64,000 nucleotides of DNA from Magnetococcales bacterium HCHbin5. Lineage in GTDB: Bacteria; Pseudomonadota; Magnetococcia; Magnetococcales; Magnetaquicoccaceae. Position numbers and translations under genes: made by a program. Below are positions 24,774 to 33,073 of this stretch, one piece after another; the stretch's first letter is position 1, and every line of letters starts with the position of its first letter. The stretch spans positions 23,109 through 87,108 of the forward strand of contig PEAG01000005.1 in assembly GCA_002753505.1 (NCBI GenBank), read 5' to 3'. The notes under the pieces were generated by a model, which was not told the origin of the DNA, did not search any database, and worked only from the letters and a program-made list of their open reading frames with translations.

Positions 24774-25097
24774 ATGAAAACACTCAAAGTGGTCTTGTTC
24801 GGGCTTGCGCTTTCGCTTTCGCTCCAAAGTGGGCATCTGTTGGCAGCTTACGAGTACAATACTGTGCCTGGAGATGATGCCCAATACAGACAGTGCAAAA
24901 GCTACTCAATGACCCGGTGGGAGGGAGGCGGGGAGCTCAGCCCCATCTCTGGTCAGTCAAAAGCGGAGGCGTTTTGTACCTGTTTGTGGAATGAGACGCC
25001 CGAGGATTTCAGGGGGGATCTGGCCAAATTCTCTGAAACCGATGCGGGAAGGGCGTTGGACAAGGTGTGCAGCAAATATTCCAATTGGGGCGATTAA
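24774..25097 (+). CDS. hypothetical secreted protein
   Basis: 107 aa with clear signal peptide and paired cysteines. Confidence 0.65.
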   Translation: MKTLKVVLFGLALSLSLQSGHLLAAYEYNTVPGDDAQYRQCKSYSMTRWEGGGELSPISGQSKAEAFCTCLWNETPEDFRGDLAKFSETDAGRALDKVCSKYSNWGD

Positions 25098-25157
25098 TAA
25101 CAGTCAAAGCCGTGCCTGATCGGCGTTGGTCGGGCTGCCATCCCTGCTTTCCCAAGG

Positions 25158-25279
25158 ATTGCAGGGGTCCGGGGACCGTCACGGTCCCCGGTGGGGTGCA
25201 GGGGCAAAGCCCCTGCATGTACGGGCGCGCTGCGCCCAAAACGCCCCGCAGGGGCACTGCTGGAGGGCGGCAGCCCGAC
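25158..25279 (+). repeat. nested hairpin repeat, copy 1 (inverted relative to copy 2)
   Basis: ATTGCAGGGGTCCGGGGACCGTCACGGTCCCCGGTGGGGTGCAGGGGCAAAGCCCCTGCATG...CGCCCCGCAGGGGC...GGGCGGCAGCCCGAC. Confidence 0.85.
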
Positions 25280-25421
25280 CGAGAGCGGGCAAGAGATTAC
25301 TTGGTTTGGAAAAAAAACCGCTCCTGGCCTTGTATCAAACAAGAAGCGTAATACAATCAAAGCGTAATATCCGAACGTCCTGTTTCCTTGTCCAAACATT
25401 TTCCATGACATAACCGTGCGC

Positions 25422-25580
25422 GTCGGGCTGCCGCCCTTCCAAGGTCGCCCCTGCGGGGCGGCTTTGTGCGCGTTGCGCAAATTTTCTGCGAAAATTTGCT
25501 TTGGGAAAACGCGCCGTTCATGCAGGGGCTTTGCCCCTGCACCCCACCGGGGAGCGTGACGCTCCCCAGACCCCTGCAAT
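25422..25580 (-). repeat. nested hairpin repeat, copy 2 (inverted relative to copy 1)
   Basis: Reverse complement reads ATTGCAGGGGTCTGGGGAGCGTCACGCTCCCCGGTGGGGTGCAGGGGCAAAGCCCCTGCATG...CGCCCCGCAGGGGC...GGGCGGCAGCCCGAC. Confidence 0.85.
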
Positions 25581-25612
25581 CGTTAGCAGGGGGCAAGGCC
25601 CCTGCGTATCCG

Positions 25613-26320
25613 TTACTCCCAGGAGTCCCGCATGCGGTATCCCACGCCCATCTCTGTCATCAGCAGTTGGGGATGGGCAGGATCCGGCTCCAGTTTGCGA
25701 CGCAACTGCGCCATGAATACCCGCAACGTATGGGTTTGATGGGTGTCGTTCGGTCCCCAGACCTCCTTCAGAATATGCCGGTGGGTCAATACCCGACCAG
25801 CATTGCGGGCCAAAAAGAGCAACAGACGAAACTCAATCGGCGTCATGGTCACCGGACGACCCGACAACAATACCTCCCGCCGCACCGGATCCAGCCGGAG
25901 CGGGCCGACCTCCAGCATTGTCTCCAGAATGGGACCGTTCTGACGCAACGAAGCATGACGCAAAGCGACCCGGATGCGTGCCATCAGCTCATTGATGCCA
26001 AAAGGCTTGGTCAGGTAGTCGTCTGCACCCGCATCCAACGCGGCCACTTTGTCGTCCTCCTTGCCCCGGGCCGAGATGACAATGATGGGCATCTGACTCC
26101 AACCCCGCAATTCGCGGGTAAAATCGATGCCATCTCCATCCGGCATGCCCAGATCGAGCAGAATCATTTCGGGCGGGTGCGCGGTGGCATACAGTCTGGC
26201 CTCCCGTAACGTTGTGGCATCGGTTACCTCAAAGGTTCGTGCGGTCAGTGCCGTGCGCAAAAAACGGCGCATTTGCAGCTCATCTTCCACCAATAAAATT
26301 CGACACGCCGTATTGTTCAT
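25613..26320 (-). CDS. OmpR-family response regulator, KdpE-like
   Basis: ILLVEDELQMRRFLRTALTARTFEVTDATT, LLDLGMPDGDGIDF, winged-helix C-terminus; next to KdpD-like kinase. Confidence 0.88.
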   Translation of the reverse strand: MNNTACRILLVEDELQMRRFLRTALTARTFEVTDATTLREARLYATAHPPEMILLDLGMPDGDGIDFTRELRGWSQMPIIVISARGKEDDKVAALDAGADDYLTKPFGINELMARIRVALRHASLRQNGPILETMLEVGPLRLDPVRREVLLSGRPVTMTPIEFRLLLFLARNAGRVLTHRHILKEVWGPNDTHQTHTLRVFMAQLRRKLEPDPAHPQLLMTEMGVGYRMRDSWE

Positions 26321-27879
26321 GACAGCAGCTCCTCTTCCGTTGCTTGATTGACGCGCTCGTGTTGGTAAATATCCGGTGGGAGAGGGGGATGCGGTAATTC
26401 GATACGAAATTCGGCTCCCCCGGACGGCTTGTTGGCGGCAACGATCGTTCCACCATGGGCTCGCACAACCCCCCGACATATGGCCAAACCCAACCCGGAA
26501 CCGGGAATGGCCGTTCCTTCGCCCCGCACAAACTTTTCAAAAATCCGCTCGATGCTATCCGCTGGGATACCCTCTCCCTGGTCCTCAATGGTGATGAGTA
26601 CCCGATCCCCCAAGCTTTTCAGTTGCCAGGTAATGGTTGTACCTACCGGAGTATACTTGATGGCATTGTCCAACAAGTTTACCAGAACCTGTTCAAAAAA
26701 AATGGGGTCCACATAAAGCAACGAAACATTTTCATCCACCTGGACGTTGACACGCCGTTCCTGGCACCGTTTTTCCAACCGAACCAGAGCCGAACCGGCC
26801 ATCTCCTCAAAGGGAACCCATTCAGGCCGCAACCGACAGCCCCCGGATTCCAGACGCACCATGTCCAACAGATTGGTGATCAACCGTTCCATCCGTTCGG
26901 CTTCGGTACAGATACTCTCCAACAACACCTGTCGTTGCAGGGGGTTCAAGCTGCCCGCATCCTCTTTCATTGTGGTGCCGGAGCCGATAATGGTGGCCAG
27001 CGGGGTGCGCAAGTCGTGGGAGACCATGCTCAACAAAGTACCCCGCAACGCCTCCTCGTTGGCACGCACGGCTGCGGTACGTGCCTCTTCGGCCAATTTG
27101 GCCCGATCAATGGCCAGCGAAGCCTGACGGGCAAAGGCTTCCATAAAATGGGCGTGGCTCGCATCCAGAAATGTGCGGTCGAGAACACGCAGCAGCAGCA
27201 CCCCAAGCGTGCGAGAGGTGAACAGGGGCAGTGCAGTGAACGCGCTGTCTGACAGTTGGCCACTGCCCCGACCGGCAATCTGCCTGTGCGCACTGCTCCA
27301 GTGCAACAGTACCCACTCAGAGTCGGCAAGGCTGAACAGCTCTGGTGTCGCAGCTACCCGGCTCCATTGGCCATCATCCTGCTCCTGACAGATGGCGGCT
27401 TCGCCACCGAACAGGTGGGCGGCCTGTTGGGTAATGATGTGGGAAACCTCTTTTTCATCCAGTGTGGTCATGACTTCCCGACCCAACTGGTGCAGGGCAT
27501 TGGTCTGTCGCTCCCGTTCCCAGGCCTCCTGTTTCTGGCGACGAATGTGCGTCAACAGCGTGTTGATGACGATGCCCACGATAAAAAGAATGGCAACCGT
27601 CAGGCTGGAGCGTGGGTCCGAAAGTGCCAGGATAAAATAAGGGTGAATAAAGAAAAAATTATAAGCAATAACCGAAAGGGCAGCAGCCAGCAAAGAGGGG
27701 GCAGGTCCGTACAGAAAAGAGACCAGCATGATCGGCAATAGATAGAGCATAACCAAATCAGGCTGCGTCAGCAGATGGCGTCCCCAAAGGATCAATGCAG
27801 TGGTGATGGCCACCGATAACAGGCTGGCCACATAGCCCCGCCAGGGCGATGGGACAATATCAAACTTTTTCAGGTTCAT
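26317..27879 (-). CDS. sensor histidine kinase, KdpD C-terminal type (DUF4118-GAF-HisKA-HATPase), lacking the KdpD N-terminal domain
   Basis: Four-helix DUF4118-like TM region then SMVSHDLRTPLATIIGSGTTMKE, NLLDNAIKYTP, GLGLAICRGVVRAHGG. Confidence 0.88.
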   Translation of the reverse strand: MNLKKFDIVPSPWRGYVASLLSVAITTALILWGRHLLTQPDLVMLYLLPIMLVSFLYGPAPSLLAAALSVIAYNFFFIHPYFILALSDPRSSLTVAILFIVGIVINTLLTHIRRQKQEAWERERQTNALHQLGREVMTTLDEKEVSHIITQQAAHLFGGEAAICQEQDDGQWSRVAATPELFSLADSEWVLLHWSSAHRQIAGRGSGQLSDSAFTALPLFTSRTLGVLLLRVLDRTFLDASHAHFMEAFARQASLAIDRAKLAEEARTAAVRANEEALRGTLLSMVSHDLRTPLATIIGSGTTMKEDAGSLNPLQRQVLLESICTEAERMERLITNLLDMVRLESGGCRLRPEWVPFEEMAGSALVRLEKRCQERRVNVQVDENVSLLYVDPIFFEQVLVNLLDNAIKYTPVGTTITWQLKSLGDRVLITIEDQGEGIPADSIERIFEKFVRGEGTAIPGSGLGLAICRGVVRAHGGTIVAANKPSGGAEFRIELPHPPLPPDIYQHERVNQATEEELLS

Positions 27880-28367
27880 TGCTCGATCTCATGCAGCTAA
27901 AATAATAACTATCATAAAAATGATACAAGTTTATTAGTTTTTCTTTTTCGTTACCCTTTATTAAGCCAGTGGTGGAGTGACCATTATACGCACATTCGTT
28001 TTGCGCAAAAGTAGTGCCGAATTTTGGGCGGCTTTTTTTGTTCACATCTTCTTAAAGGCTTGTTTGCACTTAGATTTGACTGCATTCAAGTACCGAATAA
28101 AGATCCTTATAAAATCTTGATAACTTTTTCATAAAAATTGACAACAATTTGATTTTCGATGCGCTATCATCACCGCCAGTTCGGAAAGGCACACTGTCGC
28201 TGTAATTGATTACTTTAATTGTTACGAGAAGTTTACACACTTAACATGAATGTAACATGAGGCGAAAAACAGAGGCCGACGTAGCGATCGCGTTCACGCT
28301 TGCTTTTCTGATCGCCGTTATTGTTATGAATGTCCAATCAACAGTTTACAAGGAGAACACCACGCCA

Positions 28368-29048
28368 ATGGATACACTGAACCCTTTTAGTGGGATGTTG
28401 GGTAAATCGCCCTTCAAGCTCATCCAAACCCACATGAACAAGGTCACCGAATGTGCCGATCAGATGCCCGGCCTGGTCGCGGCGATGATTCAAGGGGATG
28501 CCAACAAAATTCGCGCGGCGGCTGAGACCGTAAATGCGTTGGAGAAAGCAGCAGACGAAATGCGCAACACCGTCTTCGCCAACCTGCCCAAGAGCCTGTT
28601 CATGCCGGTCGATCGCCGTGACCTGCTGGCGGTGCTGGATCTGAACGACGAGGTGGCGGACCACTGCCAGCACATTGCCAACGCGCTGGTCGCCCGCAAC
28701 TTGCAAGTGCCCAGCGATATGGCAACGGCCCTGCAAAGTACCGTTGAGCAGTGTGTGGGTGTCGTTCATCGTGCCCATGGGGTCATGAATGAGCTGGATG
28801 AACTGGTGGAGACCGGTTTCAGTGGTCGTGAGGCACAACATGTGGCCAAACAGTTGGATGAGTTGTCTGCCGCCCGTGACGCGGCCGTCGATCACATATT
28901 GCAGCTGGGTGGTAAACTGGTTGCCCATGAAAATACCATCTCCCCCTTGGCGGCCGTTTTTTGGGTCCGCTTTTTGGAGGACATTGGCGAAATCGCCCAT
29001 GCGGCCGAAAAATCCAGCAATCGCATCCGCTTGATGCTGACGCGCTAA
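28368..29048 (+). CDS. DUF47 family (PhoU-like) protein, putative Pit accessory protein
   Basis: All-helical DUF47 pattern MDTLNPFSGMLGKSPFKLIQTHMNKVTECADQM....ALEKAADEMRNTVFANLPKSLFMPVDRRDLL; directly upstream of the PiT gene; AAGGAG SD. Confidence 0.9.
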   Translation: MDTLNPFSGMLGKSPFKLIQTHMNKVTECADQMPGLVAAMIQGDANKIRAAAETVNALEKAADEMRNTVFANLPKSLFMPVDRRDLLAVLDLNDEVADHCQHIANALVARNLQVPSDMATALQSTVEQCVGVVHRAHGVMNELDELVETGFSGREAQHVAKQLDELSAARDAAVDHILQLGGKLVAHENTISPLAAVFWVRFLEDIGEIAHAAEKSSNRIRLMLTR

Positions 29049-29097
29049 TTATTACCCCCTACCAATACGCATAATCATGCATCGAGGAGATGGTTAG

Positions 29098-30366
29098 ATG
29101 GAAATTATTGCTCAATATGGGTCATTATTCACCGCTATGGCCATGGTCTTTGCCTTTTACGCCTGTTGGGCGATTGGCGCGAATGATGTGGCCAACGCCA
29201 TGGGGCCGCCGGTGGGATCCGGCTCTTTAAGCCTGCGCAATGCCGTTATTATTGCGGCAATTTTTGAGTTTGCCGGTGCCTTCCTCGCCGGTGGACAGGT
29301 GACTGGCACCATCCGCAAGGGCATCGTGGATCCCCAGGTGTTTGTCGCCACCCCGCACCTGCTGATGTATGGCATGACCGCGGCGGTGCTGGCAACGGCT
29401 CTCTGGCTGCATTTTGCCACCAGTCGGGGTTGGCCGGTCTCCACCACCCATACCATCGTCGGGGCCGTCGCCGGCTTTGCCGCCGTCGGTGTTGGCGTCG
29501 ATACCGTTCAATGGGGCAAAATGGGTGAGATTGTTGCCTCCTGGTTTGTCTCCCCGGTGCTGGGTGCCATCCTGGCCTTCCTGCTGACCATGAGCATCCG
29601 CAAGCTGATCATGGATACCGAAAAACCGTTTGAAAATGCCAGAGCATGGGGTCCTTTCTACGTGTTTCTGGTCGGATTTATCGTTTCCCTGATCACCTTT
29701 TTCAAGGGGTTGGAGCATCTCAAGCTGAAGTTGAGCGATATGGAGACTGTGACCGCCTCTTTCGTTGCCGGTGTGATCTGCGCCATTGTCGGCAAGATCA
29801 TGATCAACAAAATTCAGGCGGATCACGCGGCAGACAAGGAATTTTTCCACGCCAGTGCGGAAAAAGTCTTTATCCCCATGATGGCCTTCACCGCTGCTGC
29901 CATGTGTTTTGCCCACGGTTCCAATGACGTGGCCAACGGTATCGGTCCTTTGGCGGCCGTGCTGGATGTGGTCAACACGGGCGGTAAGGTTTCCGGCAAG
30001 TCGCCGTTGCCGTTGTGGGTGTTGACCATGGGTGGTATCGCCATCATCATCGGCTTGGCCACCTACGGAGCCAAGGTGATTGCCACCATCGGTACCAAAA
30101 TTACCGAGCTGACCCCCAGCCGTGCCTTTTCCGCCACCCTGGCCGCTGCCACGGTAACCGCTGTGGCTTCCAAGCTCGGTATGCCGGTCTCCACCACCCA
30201 TATCGCCGTCGGTGCGGTGTTGGGGGTGGGTTTGGCACGGGGTATCGGAGCCCTGGATCTGCGGGTTCTGCTTAACATTGTCGTCTCCTGGTTGGTTACG
30301 GTGCCGGCGGGTGCTTTGGGTGCGGCTTTGATCTTTTTCATCTTGAAAGGGATCTTTGGCGCGTAA
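29098..30366 (+). CDS. inorganic phosphate transporter, PiT family
   Basis: CWAIGANDVANAMGP and GSNDVANGIGPL duplicated PiT signatures; GMPVSTTH. Confidence 0.95.
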   Translation: MEIIAQYGSLFTAMAMVFAFYACWAIGANDVANAMGPPVGSGSLSLRNAVIIAAIFEFAGAFLAGGQVTGTIRKGIVDPQVFVATPHLLMYGMTAAVLATALWLHFATSRGWPVSTTHTIVGAVAGFAAVGVGVDTVQWGKMGEIVASWFVSPVLGAILAFLLTMSIRKLIMDTEKPFENARAWGPFYVFLVGFIVSLITFFKGLEHLKLKLSDMETVTASFVAGVICAIVGKIMINKIQADHAADKEFFHASAEKVFIPMMAFTAAAMCFAHGSNDVANGIGPLAAVLDVVNTGGKVSGKSPLPLWVLTMGGIAIIIGLATYGAKVIATIGTKITELTPSRAFSATLAAATVTAVASKLGMPVSTTHIAVGAVLGVGLARGIGALDLRVLLNIVVSWLVTVPAGALGAALIFFILKGIFGA

Positions 30367-31578: not shown

Positions 31579-31831
31579 AAAACGATTGGTTCGTTGGCTT
31601 GTCCTCTGTCAGACCTGTCCAGGCGATATTTGGCCATTTTTGTTGTCTGACTGAGGATCTGACGTCGTTTTCCGACCTGCCAGGCATGGCAGCGTGTGGG
31701 TGCGGGGCGGTCCTTTGATTGTTGAGTGGGGCCATGGGAGAGAGATCGCCGGTAGTGGATGACTACCTGAACATGATTGAGTGCTGACCATACAAAAAAA
31801 TAGTCATAATTCTAAATTAGTGAGGTTGACC

Positions 31832-33073
31832 GTGAGCGATAAACAGGCAGATACAGAAGCGTTTACACTGCATCCGACCCCCATGTTGGATGATCTGGAG
31901 TCAGGGCCGTGGCCGAGTTTTGTCAAAGGTTTCAAGGAATCGGTCCAAAGAACGGGAAAAACCATGGTTCGTGGTGTGCTTGACCAACTGAACTACTCTT
32001 ACGAAACCCGCATGGGATACTGGAAGGGTGGCGTTGTAGGGGTTCATGGTTATGGCGCGGGGATTATCAGTCGGTACAGCTTGATTAGCGACAAATTTCC
32101 CGAGGCGGCAGAGTTTCATACCATGCGGGTTCAACCCGCACCGGGCTTGCACTACACCTCCCAGGCGTTGCGGGAGATCTGCGATATTTGGGAAGAGTAT
32201 GGTTCCGGCCTGTTGTCGATGCATGGTCAGACCGGCAACCTGCAGTTGCAGGGGATCAAGGCAGAGCATGTGCAGGCCTGTTTTGACGCCATCAACAAGC
32301 TGGGTTGGGATCTGGGGGGGGCCGGGGCCACGGTGCGGACGGGCTCCTCTTGTGTTGGCCCGGCCCGTTGTGAGCAGGCCTGTTACGACACCCTGGGTGT
32401 TCATGGCAAGGTGCTGGGGTACTATTCGGATTTGACCCATCGGCCCCAACTGCCCTACAAAGCCAAGTTTAAATTTTCCGGTTGTCCCAACGATTGCACC
32501 AACAGCATCCAGCGCAGCGACTATTCGGTGATCGGCACCTGGCGTGACGACATCAAGATTGACGATGCCGAGGTGGAAAAATTTGTCGCCCGGAAAGGGC
32601 TGGACTATGTCGTCAACAATGTCATCAGCCGTTGCCCCACCCATGCCATCACCTTGCAGGGCGGCAGGATGGTGATCGACAACCGTTCCTGTGTGCGCTG
32701 CATGCACTGCCTGAATGTGATGCCCAAGGCCCTTTCGCCGGGCGATGATCGGGGCATCACCCTGCTGGTGGGGGGTAAGGGCCATCTGAAGGTGGGCAAC
32801 ATGATGGGTTCCGTCATGGTTCCCTTCATGAAGATGGATACCGATGAGGATGTGGATGCCTTCATCGAACTGGTGGACAAGATGATTGATTATTGGTCGG
32901 AAAACGGCTTGGATCACGAGCGCATTGGCGAATGTATTGAACGGGTCGGGGTGCAACAGTTTTTGGAGGCGGTCGGCCTGGAGGCCAACGTGGATATGGT
33001 TGCCCATCCGCGGGACAACCCGTTTTTTAAAGCGGATGATGCCACTGCCACTGCGGGTCAGCAAGCGGCCTGA
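31832..33073 (+). CDS. dsrA: dissimilatory sulfite reductase alpha subunit (oxidative/reverse type inferred)
   Basis: CVGPARCEQACYDT...FKFSGCPNDCTNSIQRSD siroheme/[4Fe-4S] motifs and ferredoxin-type CVRCMHC; followed by dsrB. GTG start at 31832 with SD GTGAGG. Confidence 0.95.
   Translation: MSDKQADTEAFTLHPTPMLDDLESGPWPSFVKGFKESVQRTGKTMVRGVLDQLNYSYETRMGYWKGGVVGVHGYGAGIISRYSLISDKFPEAAEFHTMRVQPAPGLHYTSQALREICDIWEEYGSGLLSMHGQTGNLQLQGIKAEHVQACFDAINKLGWDLGGAGATVRTGSSCVGPARCEQACYDTLGVHGKVLGYYSDLTHRPQLPYKAKFKFSGCPNDCTNSIQRSDYSVIGTWRDDIKIDDAEVEKFVARKGLDYVVNNVISRCPTHAITLQGGRMVIDNRSCVRCMHCLNVMPKALSPGDDRGITLLVGGKGHLKVGNMMGSVMVPFMKMDTDEDVDAFIELVDKMIDYWSENGLDHERIGECIERVGVQQFLEAVGLEANVDMVAHPRDNPFFKADDATATAGQQAA

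Follow-up and report, generated by a model that had tools for sequence, protein, structure and literature searches.

REPs are defined by a GTAG or CGTC tag and favour convergent and 3' positions (PMC3733652), which are also the positions favoured by BOX, RUP and SPRITE repeats (PMC3049150). BIMEs form modular arrays with locus-specific spacers, for which rolling-circle amplification has been proposed (PMC2817692), and ERIC can reach up to 711 copies (PMC10969869). The repeat described here was found in Magnetococcales bacterium HCHbin5 (4.19 Mb, 200 contigs), from an order of magnetotactic bacteria, in a window of 64,000 nucleotides. A literature search, limited in reach, returned no account of this repeat in Magnetococcales, Rfam 15 gave no match near the gathering score for the element, and plasmid records and viral contigs held no match to it. 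The copy in the window is likely to belong to a non-autonomous, dispersed palindromic repeat of the BIME/MITE type.

Anatomy of the copy in the window

Positions 25158-25580 hold a single copy of a composite repeat, in which two inverted arms of about 160 bp, each consisting of five hairpins in a row, surround a core (Table 1). The inverted pair of hairpin elements described in an earlier, sequence-only reading is real: the stretches 25154-25224 and 25514-25584 are 93% complementary over 71 nt, and the matching blocks reported for both arms, GGGCGGCAGCCCGAC (25264-25279 and 25422-25437) and CGCCCCGCAGGGGC (25242-25255 and 25447-25460), are 100% identical. The central hairpin motif occurs twice in the window, against 0.11 occurrences expected. 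The element starts at position 25160, where AT is directly followed by TGCAGGGG. Its arm A misses a 37-bp piece of the third hairpin (hairpin C) that is present in most copies, a deletion found in about six other copies, which form a small subfamily with it. The two AAGCGTAATA direct repeats noticed in the core are present as well (25344-25353 and 25360-25369), and correspond to the two copies of one 16-bp tandem duplication. The folding energy of the 441-nt element strand lies 17.7 sd below that of shuffles, and the folded strand could form one giant hairpin.

The flanking genes are those named in the sequence-only reading, a signal-peptide-like ORF and a KdpE-type regulator. Directly outside arm A, positions 25128-25139 hold an exact piece of hairpin E (GGTCGGGCTGCC), possibly a fragment of an older copy. 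Beyond the element, the region 26317-30366 encodes a short KdpD-type sensor kinase (DUF4118, GAF, HisKA) and the KdpE-type regulator, not beside kdpABC; these genes adjoin DUF47-type regulator-like and Pit-type phosphate permease-like ORFs, both judged by eye. A siroheme sulfite reductase with NIR_SIR domains, DsrA-like by eye, lies at 31781-33073 and suggests sulfur oxidation or sulfite metabolism.

Table 1. Features of the element copy and its neighbours (positions in the window)
Feature	Position	Strand	Remarks
Signal-peptide-like ORF	24774-25097	+	no Pfam match
Arm A	25158-25283	+	deletion subfamily, without 37 bp of hairpin C
Hairpin A of arm A (CCGGGGACCGTCACGGTCCCCGG)	25169-25191	+	covariation shown on arm B
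Hairpin B of arm A (GCAGGGGCAAAGCCCCTGC)	25198-25216	+	
Hairpin C remnant of arm A (GGGCGCGCTGCGCCC)	25223-25237	+	
Hairpin D of arm A	25243-25255	+	
Hairpin E of arm A (GGGCGGCAGCCC)	25265-25276	+	
Core	25280-25421	+	142-bp subtype; antiparallel to adjoining kdpE-type gene
A8 tract in core	25310-25317	+	
16-bp tandem duplication	25344-25369	+	holds both AAGCGTAATA; duplication hotspot in other copies
Arm B	25422-25580	-	full length; toward 3' end of kdpE-type gene
Hairpin C of arm B	25467-25515	-	nested stems; compensatory changes in other copies
Hairpin B of arm B	25522-25540	-	
Hairpin A of arm B	25547-25569	-	
Outer end motif	25579-25585	-	TAACGAT read inward; consensus TTNAAACNAT ahead of TGCAGGGG
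Additional hairpin	25586-25606	.	partly degenerate; from element to kdpE-type stop codon; probably remnant of an outer unit
Response regulator, KdpE type	25613-26479	-	

Dispersal, fixed ends and local instability

Used as a query, arm A gives 91 matches in the 4.19-Mb genome. The hairpin motif GGGTGCAGGGGCnnnGCCCCTGCA, of which each inner arm has one, is found at 587 places, against none for the reversed control, and the inner-arm hairpins pair as plus and minus at about 350 bp, so that the 587 hairpins correspond to roughly 290 elements. At about 440 bp each, these would amount to about 130 kb or about 3% of the genome, a figure that is arithmetic from the hairpin count and no direct measurement. 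The core, described earlier as 140 bp of unique sequence, is itself repeated, with 49 matches among 40 scored of 235 candidate places. The sequence-only reading had named an element found only here as the outcome that would speak against it; instead, there are hundreds of copies elsewhere in the genome. These refute a simple local inverted duplication, for which the local symmetry alone speaks and whose probability is now negligible. Contig ends lie inside an element piece in 34 of the 47 cases examined, compared with 10% of random pieces, and the division of the assembly into 200 pieces is therefore probably due to this repeat. With such a load, the genome offers a natural experiment, rich in copies, on palindromic repeats for which no transposase is known.

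The inner element has one order, in which AT and TGCAGGGG are followed by hairpins A and B, the large nested hairpin C, hairpins D and E, the core, and the mirror image of the same series, with a span concentrated at 438-457 bp (68 elements). At the element end, as seen in 66 elements, T-rich DNA is followed by TTNAAACNAT and directly by TGCAGGGGTC, and AAC.AT immediately ahead of TGCAGGGG is almost invariant. Long inverted arms and sharp ends would also be expected of a classical MITE, moved by a DDE transposase and flanked by target-site duplications. However, a search of 66 elements at all offsets for duplications of 2-9 bp, a check suggested in the sequence-only reading, found no direct repeat at any fixed offset, and the longest flank words in common per element stay at the level of shuffled pairs. 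This explanation is largely refuted and must be considered very improbable.

Within these fixed ends the element is unstable at three fixed points, with locus-specific tandem duplication hotspots at the outer hairpin and at the core centre. Cores measure about 125 or about 142 bp, but tandem units that are specific to a locus, each of roughly 5-60 bp, lengthen their middle, up to 360 bp, and the AAGCGTAATA pair of the window is one among many such duplications at the same core point. In more than half of the elements, one or both arms are flanked on the outside by extra copies of the initial ~56 bp with a spacer; the repeat period (48, 71, 80, 92, 96, 99 or 108 bp) varies from locus to locus and is uniform within each. 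Tandem repeats make up 13.4% of element DNA, 1.2% of gene DNA and 1.6% of intergenic DNA elsewhere, and their density in elements is about 10 times that of genes and nearly 7 times that of other intergenic DNA. In one copy (L094 3361-4023) dozens of 8-bp units enlarge the core to 349 bp, and directly outside this copy there is an (AAGGAA)n run. The 56-bp direct repeats, consisting of hairpin A and a spacer, would shrink and grow via recombination or slippage; alternatively, the tandem units may originate from rolling-circle amplification as proposed for BIMEs (PMC2817692).

Related composites are present in other members of the order. The terminal hairpin is found in 23 of 41 Magnetococcales genomes, and the hairpin pattern matches the Magnetococcales MAG ER1bin7. 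The core is essentially limited to this species, and G004 and G006 match just 20-40-bp arm pieces. The composites of the sister species G006 have homologous arm parts and an unrelated core, and those of G025 have a different build and the same end. Another sister species, G002 (L187-L190, L194), holds its own abundant GGGGTCCAGGGG-type hairpin composites with the same terminal hairpin. It is tentatively proposed, as an idea that is still rather doubtful, that these belong to an order-wide superfamily of mobile palindromic composites with one terminal hairpin and species-specific cores. An unrecognised single-strand mechanism would read the direction of transcription, placing them behind genes in one orientation, and would leave locus-specific tandem duplications at three fixed points.

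Gene context, orientation and constraint on the hairpins

Gene context was assessed with a home-made codon-usage gene caller in 1.23 Mb of the 4.19 Mb (29%), in stretches chosen partly for holding elements. Only 2 of 97 elements overlap a called gene. Among the 95 elements with both neighbours, 42 lie between convergent, 50 between codirectional and 3 between divergent genes, whereas the comparison gaps of more than 100 bp without elements number 27, 167 and 68, respectively (element versus other gaps: convergent p 1e-11; divergent p 1.5e-7). The convergent preference is repeated in G006, with 16 of 27 elements in convergent gaps and none in divergent ones.

The element is also oriented with respect to transcription. 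Of the 50 elements in codirectional gaps, 42 have a core antiparallel to it (42:8, p 1e-6); the second sample alone gives 13:5 (p 0.10). In all 14 cases in which local transcription opposes the strand bias of its stretch, the core goes with local transcription. The replication strand was considered as a driver of core orientation and rejected, as no link was found with GC skew or stretch strand bias. In G006, analysed with a one-arm marker, the ratio is 4:7 and shows no bias. This coupling to transcription exceeds what harmless insertion predicts, and counts against the preferred reading of a dispersed non-autonomous repeat.

What is maintained within the arms is the hairpins. The 45 base pairs of six helices, scored in 64 sequences of arm B, form in 99.7% of cells. 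Two-sided changes affect five of these pairs in 100 cells, versus 37.6 for shuffled data (0 of 500) and no more than 17 for slid controls. Part of this covariation may reflect a few old variants spread via recombination. Within one element, variants of arm A show no correlation with those at the same variable sites of arm B (Fisher p 0.35 and 0.77), which means that pairing between the arms can be lost without loss of the individual hairpins. Since the hairpins stay paired through two-sided changes and the arms vary independently, the constrained unit is the single hairpin.

These compensatory changes, together with the placement behind genes and a core orientation that tracks transcription, would fit a domesticated 3'-end RNA or transcription-boundary element, in which the transcribed arm B and core act as a transcription barrier or mRNA 3' stabiliser whose position and orientation are under selection. 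In 60 of 66 copies the transcript strand of the core additionally bears a run of at least six U. Against such a role, the transcript strand of the element holds no canonical intrinsic terminator, core expansions of more than 200 bp and outer arrays are tolerated, the element is missing at most genes, and the bias in orientation loses strength in the second sample and disappears in G006. The search for an intrinsic terminator gave just weak matches, at shuffle level and on the other strand. Domestication at transcript ends is accordingly judged improbable, although, under the preferred reading of a dispersed repeat, transcripts running into arm B may incidentally be stabilised or terminated by the hairpins. 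Testable predictions on the origin of such repeats follow from the orientation rule and from the duplication hotspots.

Probable mobility and comparison with described repeats

Neither an empty site nor a new insertion was seen, and movement of the element is inferred from its dispersal. Two copies that are 96.6% identical (L212:11421 and L213:5790) have only 2 bp of flank in common per side. Two others, 2.6 kb apart on contig C33 (L092 7569-8138 and 10044-10820), are 99.6% identical in their inner parts and differ in outer unit numbers and right flanks, and represent a recent copying or conversion event. The kdpE neighbourhood, examined for an empty site, has no synteny in relatives, and no ORF-bearing or autonomous version with the same ends was found in 1.23 Mb of the 4.19 Mb.

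Two candidate enzymes are encoded side by side on contig C130, each by a single gene in the genome: an intact Y1_Tnp (RAYT-type) gene (L152 1189-1863, minus strand) and, upstream of it, a Y2_Tnp (IS91-type) gene with an in-frame TGA (L152 1-943). The pair adjoins a tyrosine-recombinase-like ORF, and no element hairpin lies beside either gene in the 3.3 kb of this locus that the analysis covered. IS110/IS1111 (PF02371) is absent.

The presence of a Y1_Tnp gene, a REP-like placement (PMC3733652), and modular arrays with locus-specific spacers as in BIMEs (PMC2817692) would be consistent with a true REP/BIME moved by this transposase. Nevertheless, the lone RAYT-type gene, for which a search had been suggested earlier, is not flanked by the hairpins, the GTAG/CGTC tag is lacking, and the hairpin-bearing draft genomes G005, G015 and G018 have no Y1_Tnp. 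Present once, unflanked and uneven in relatives, this gene was rejected as the mobilising gene, and a true REP/BIME seems unlikely.

A MITE that descends from a rolling-circle transposon of the IS91 type (Y2) would have no target duplication, a terminal hairpin and a preference for a short AAC-containing target. The missing target-site duplications, the position of Y2_Tnp next to the Y1 gene, and its presence in the three genomes with most hairpin candidates (G000, the genome holding the window, G002 and G006) agree with this origin. The ends of IS91, however, are not alike, in contrast to the two ends of the element. Furthermore, the genome's own Y2_Tnp is interrupted, no hairpin ends were found beside this damaged copy, and over 41 genomes the gene is not clearly associated with the hairpin (7 of 23 hairpin-bearing versus 3 of 18 other genomes). 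Y2_Tnp is thus a single gene with an unconvincing association, and descent from IS91 appears as improbable as the RNA role above.

For the dispersed, non-autonomous repeat that is preferred here, an enzyme supplied in trans would recognise the end, made up of AAC.AT, TGCAGGGG and hairpin A, probably in the form of a single-stranded hairpin. As HUH transposases do, it would then copy or move the element without target duplication and without staggered cuts in the target. The best candidates would be HUH enzymes of the IS200/IS605-RAYT (Y1) or IS91 (Y2) type, and survival would be best where insertion is harmless, behind stop codons.

Compared with BIMEs built from REPs in Enterobacteria, Pseudomonas and Stenotrophomonas (PMC2817692, PMC3733652), the element has in common the high copy number, inverted palindromic units flanking a spacer, the extragenic position mostly behind genes and between convergent genes, complementary changes that keep the palindrome, and modular tandem forms with locus-specific spacers. 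Its unit is instead a 160-bp arm of five hairpins, where a REP is one 20-40-bp unit; its core is conserved in all copies; and it flanks no RAYT gene and has no GTAG or CGTC at the hairpin foot, which reads AAC.AT and then TGCAGGGGTC in 66 elements.

With ERIC and Correia MITEs (PMC10969869) it shares terminal inverted repeats, high copy number, an intergenic position and the absence of coding capacity, and its sharp ends are MITE-like too. It differs from them in that no target-site duplication was detected and in its much longer arms, each of which folds on itself into a row of hairpins.

Pneumococcal BOX (boxA-boxB(n)-boxC; PMC3049150) is similar by architecture only, with fixed left and right modules, a centre of variable tandem copy number, over-representation between convergent genes and a strongly folding predicted transcript. 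Unlike BOX, which has one fixed boxB, the element has locus-specific centre units and arms that are inverted copies of each other, and no sequence relation between the two is known. The REP/BIME-type or MITE-like assignment of the sequence-only reading thus holds as to kind, as the repeat is high-copy, intergenic, palindromic and dispersed, and fails on the specific marks of tag, RAYT and target-site duplication: the element falls outside the definitions of REP and of classical MITE that were tested, though it is BIME-, MITE- and BOX-like.
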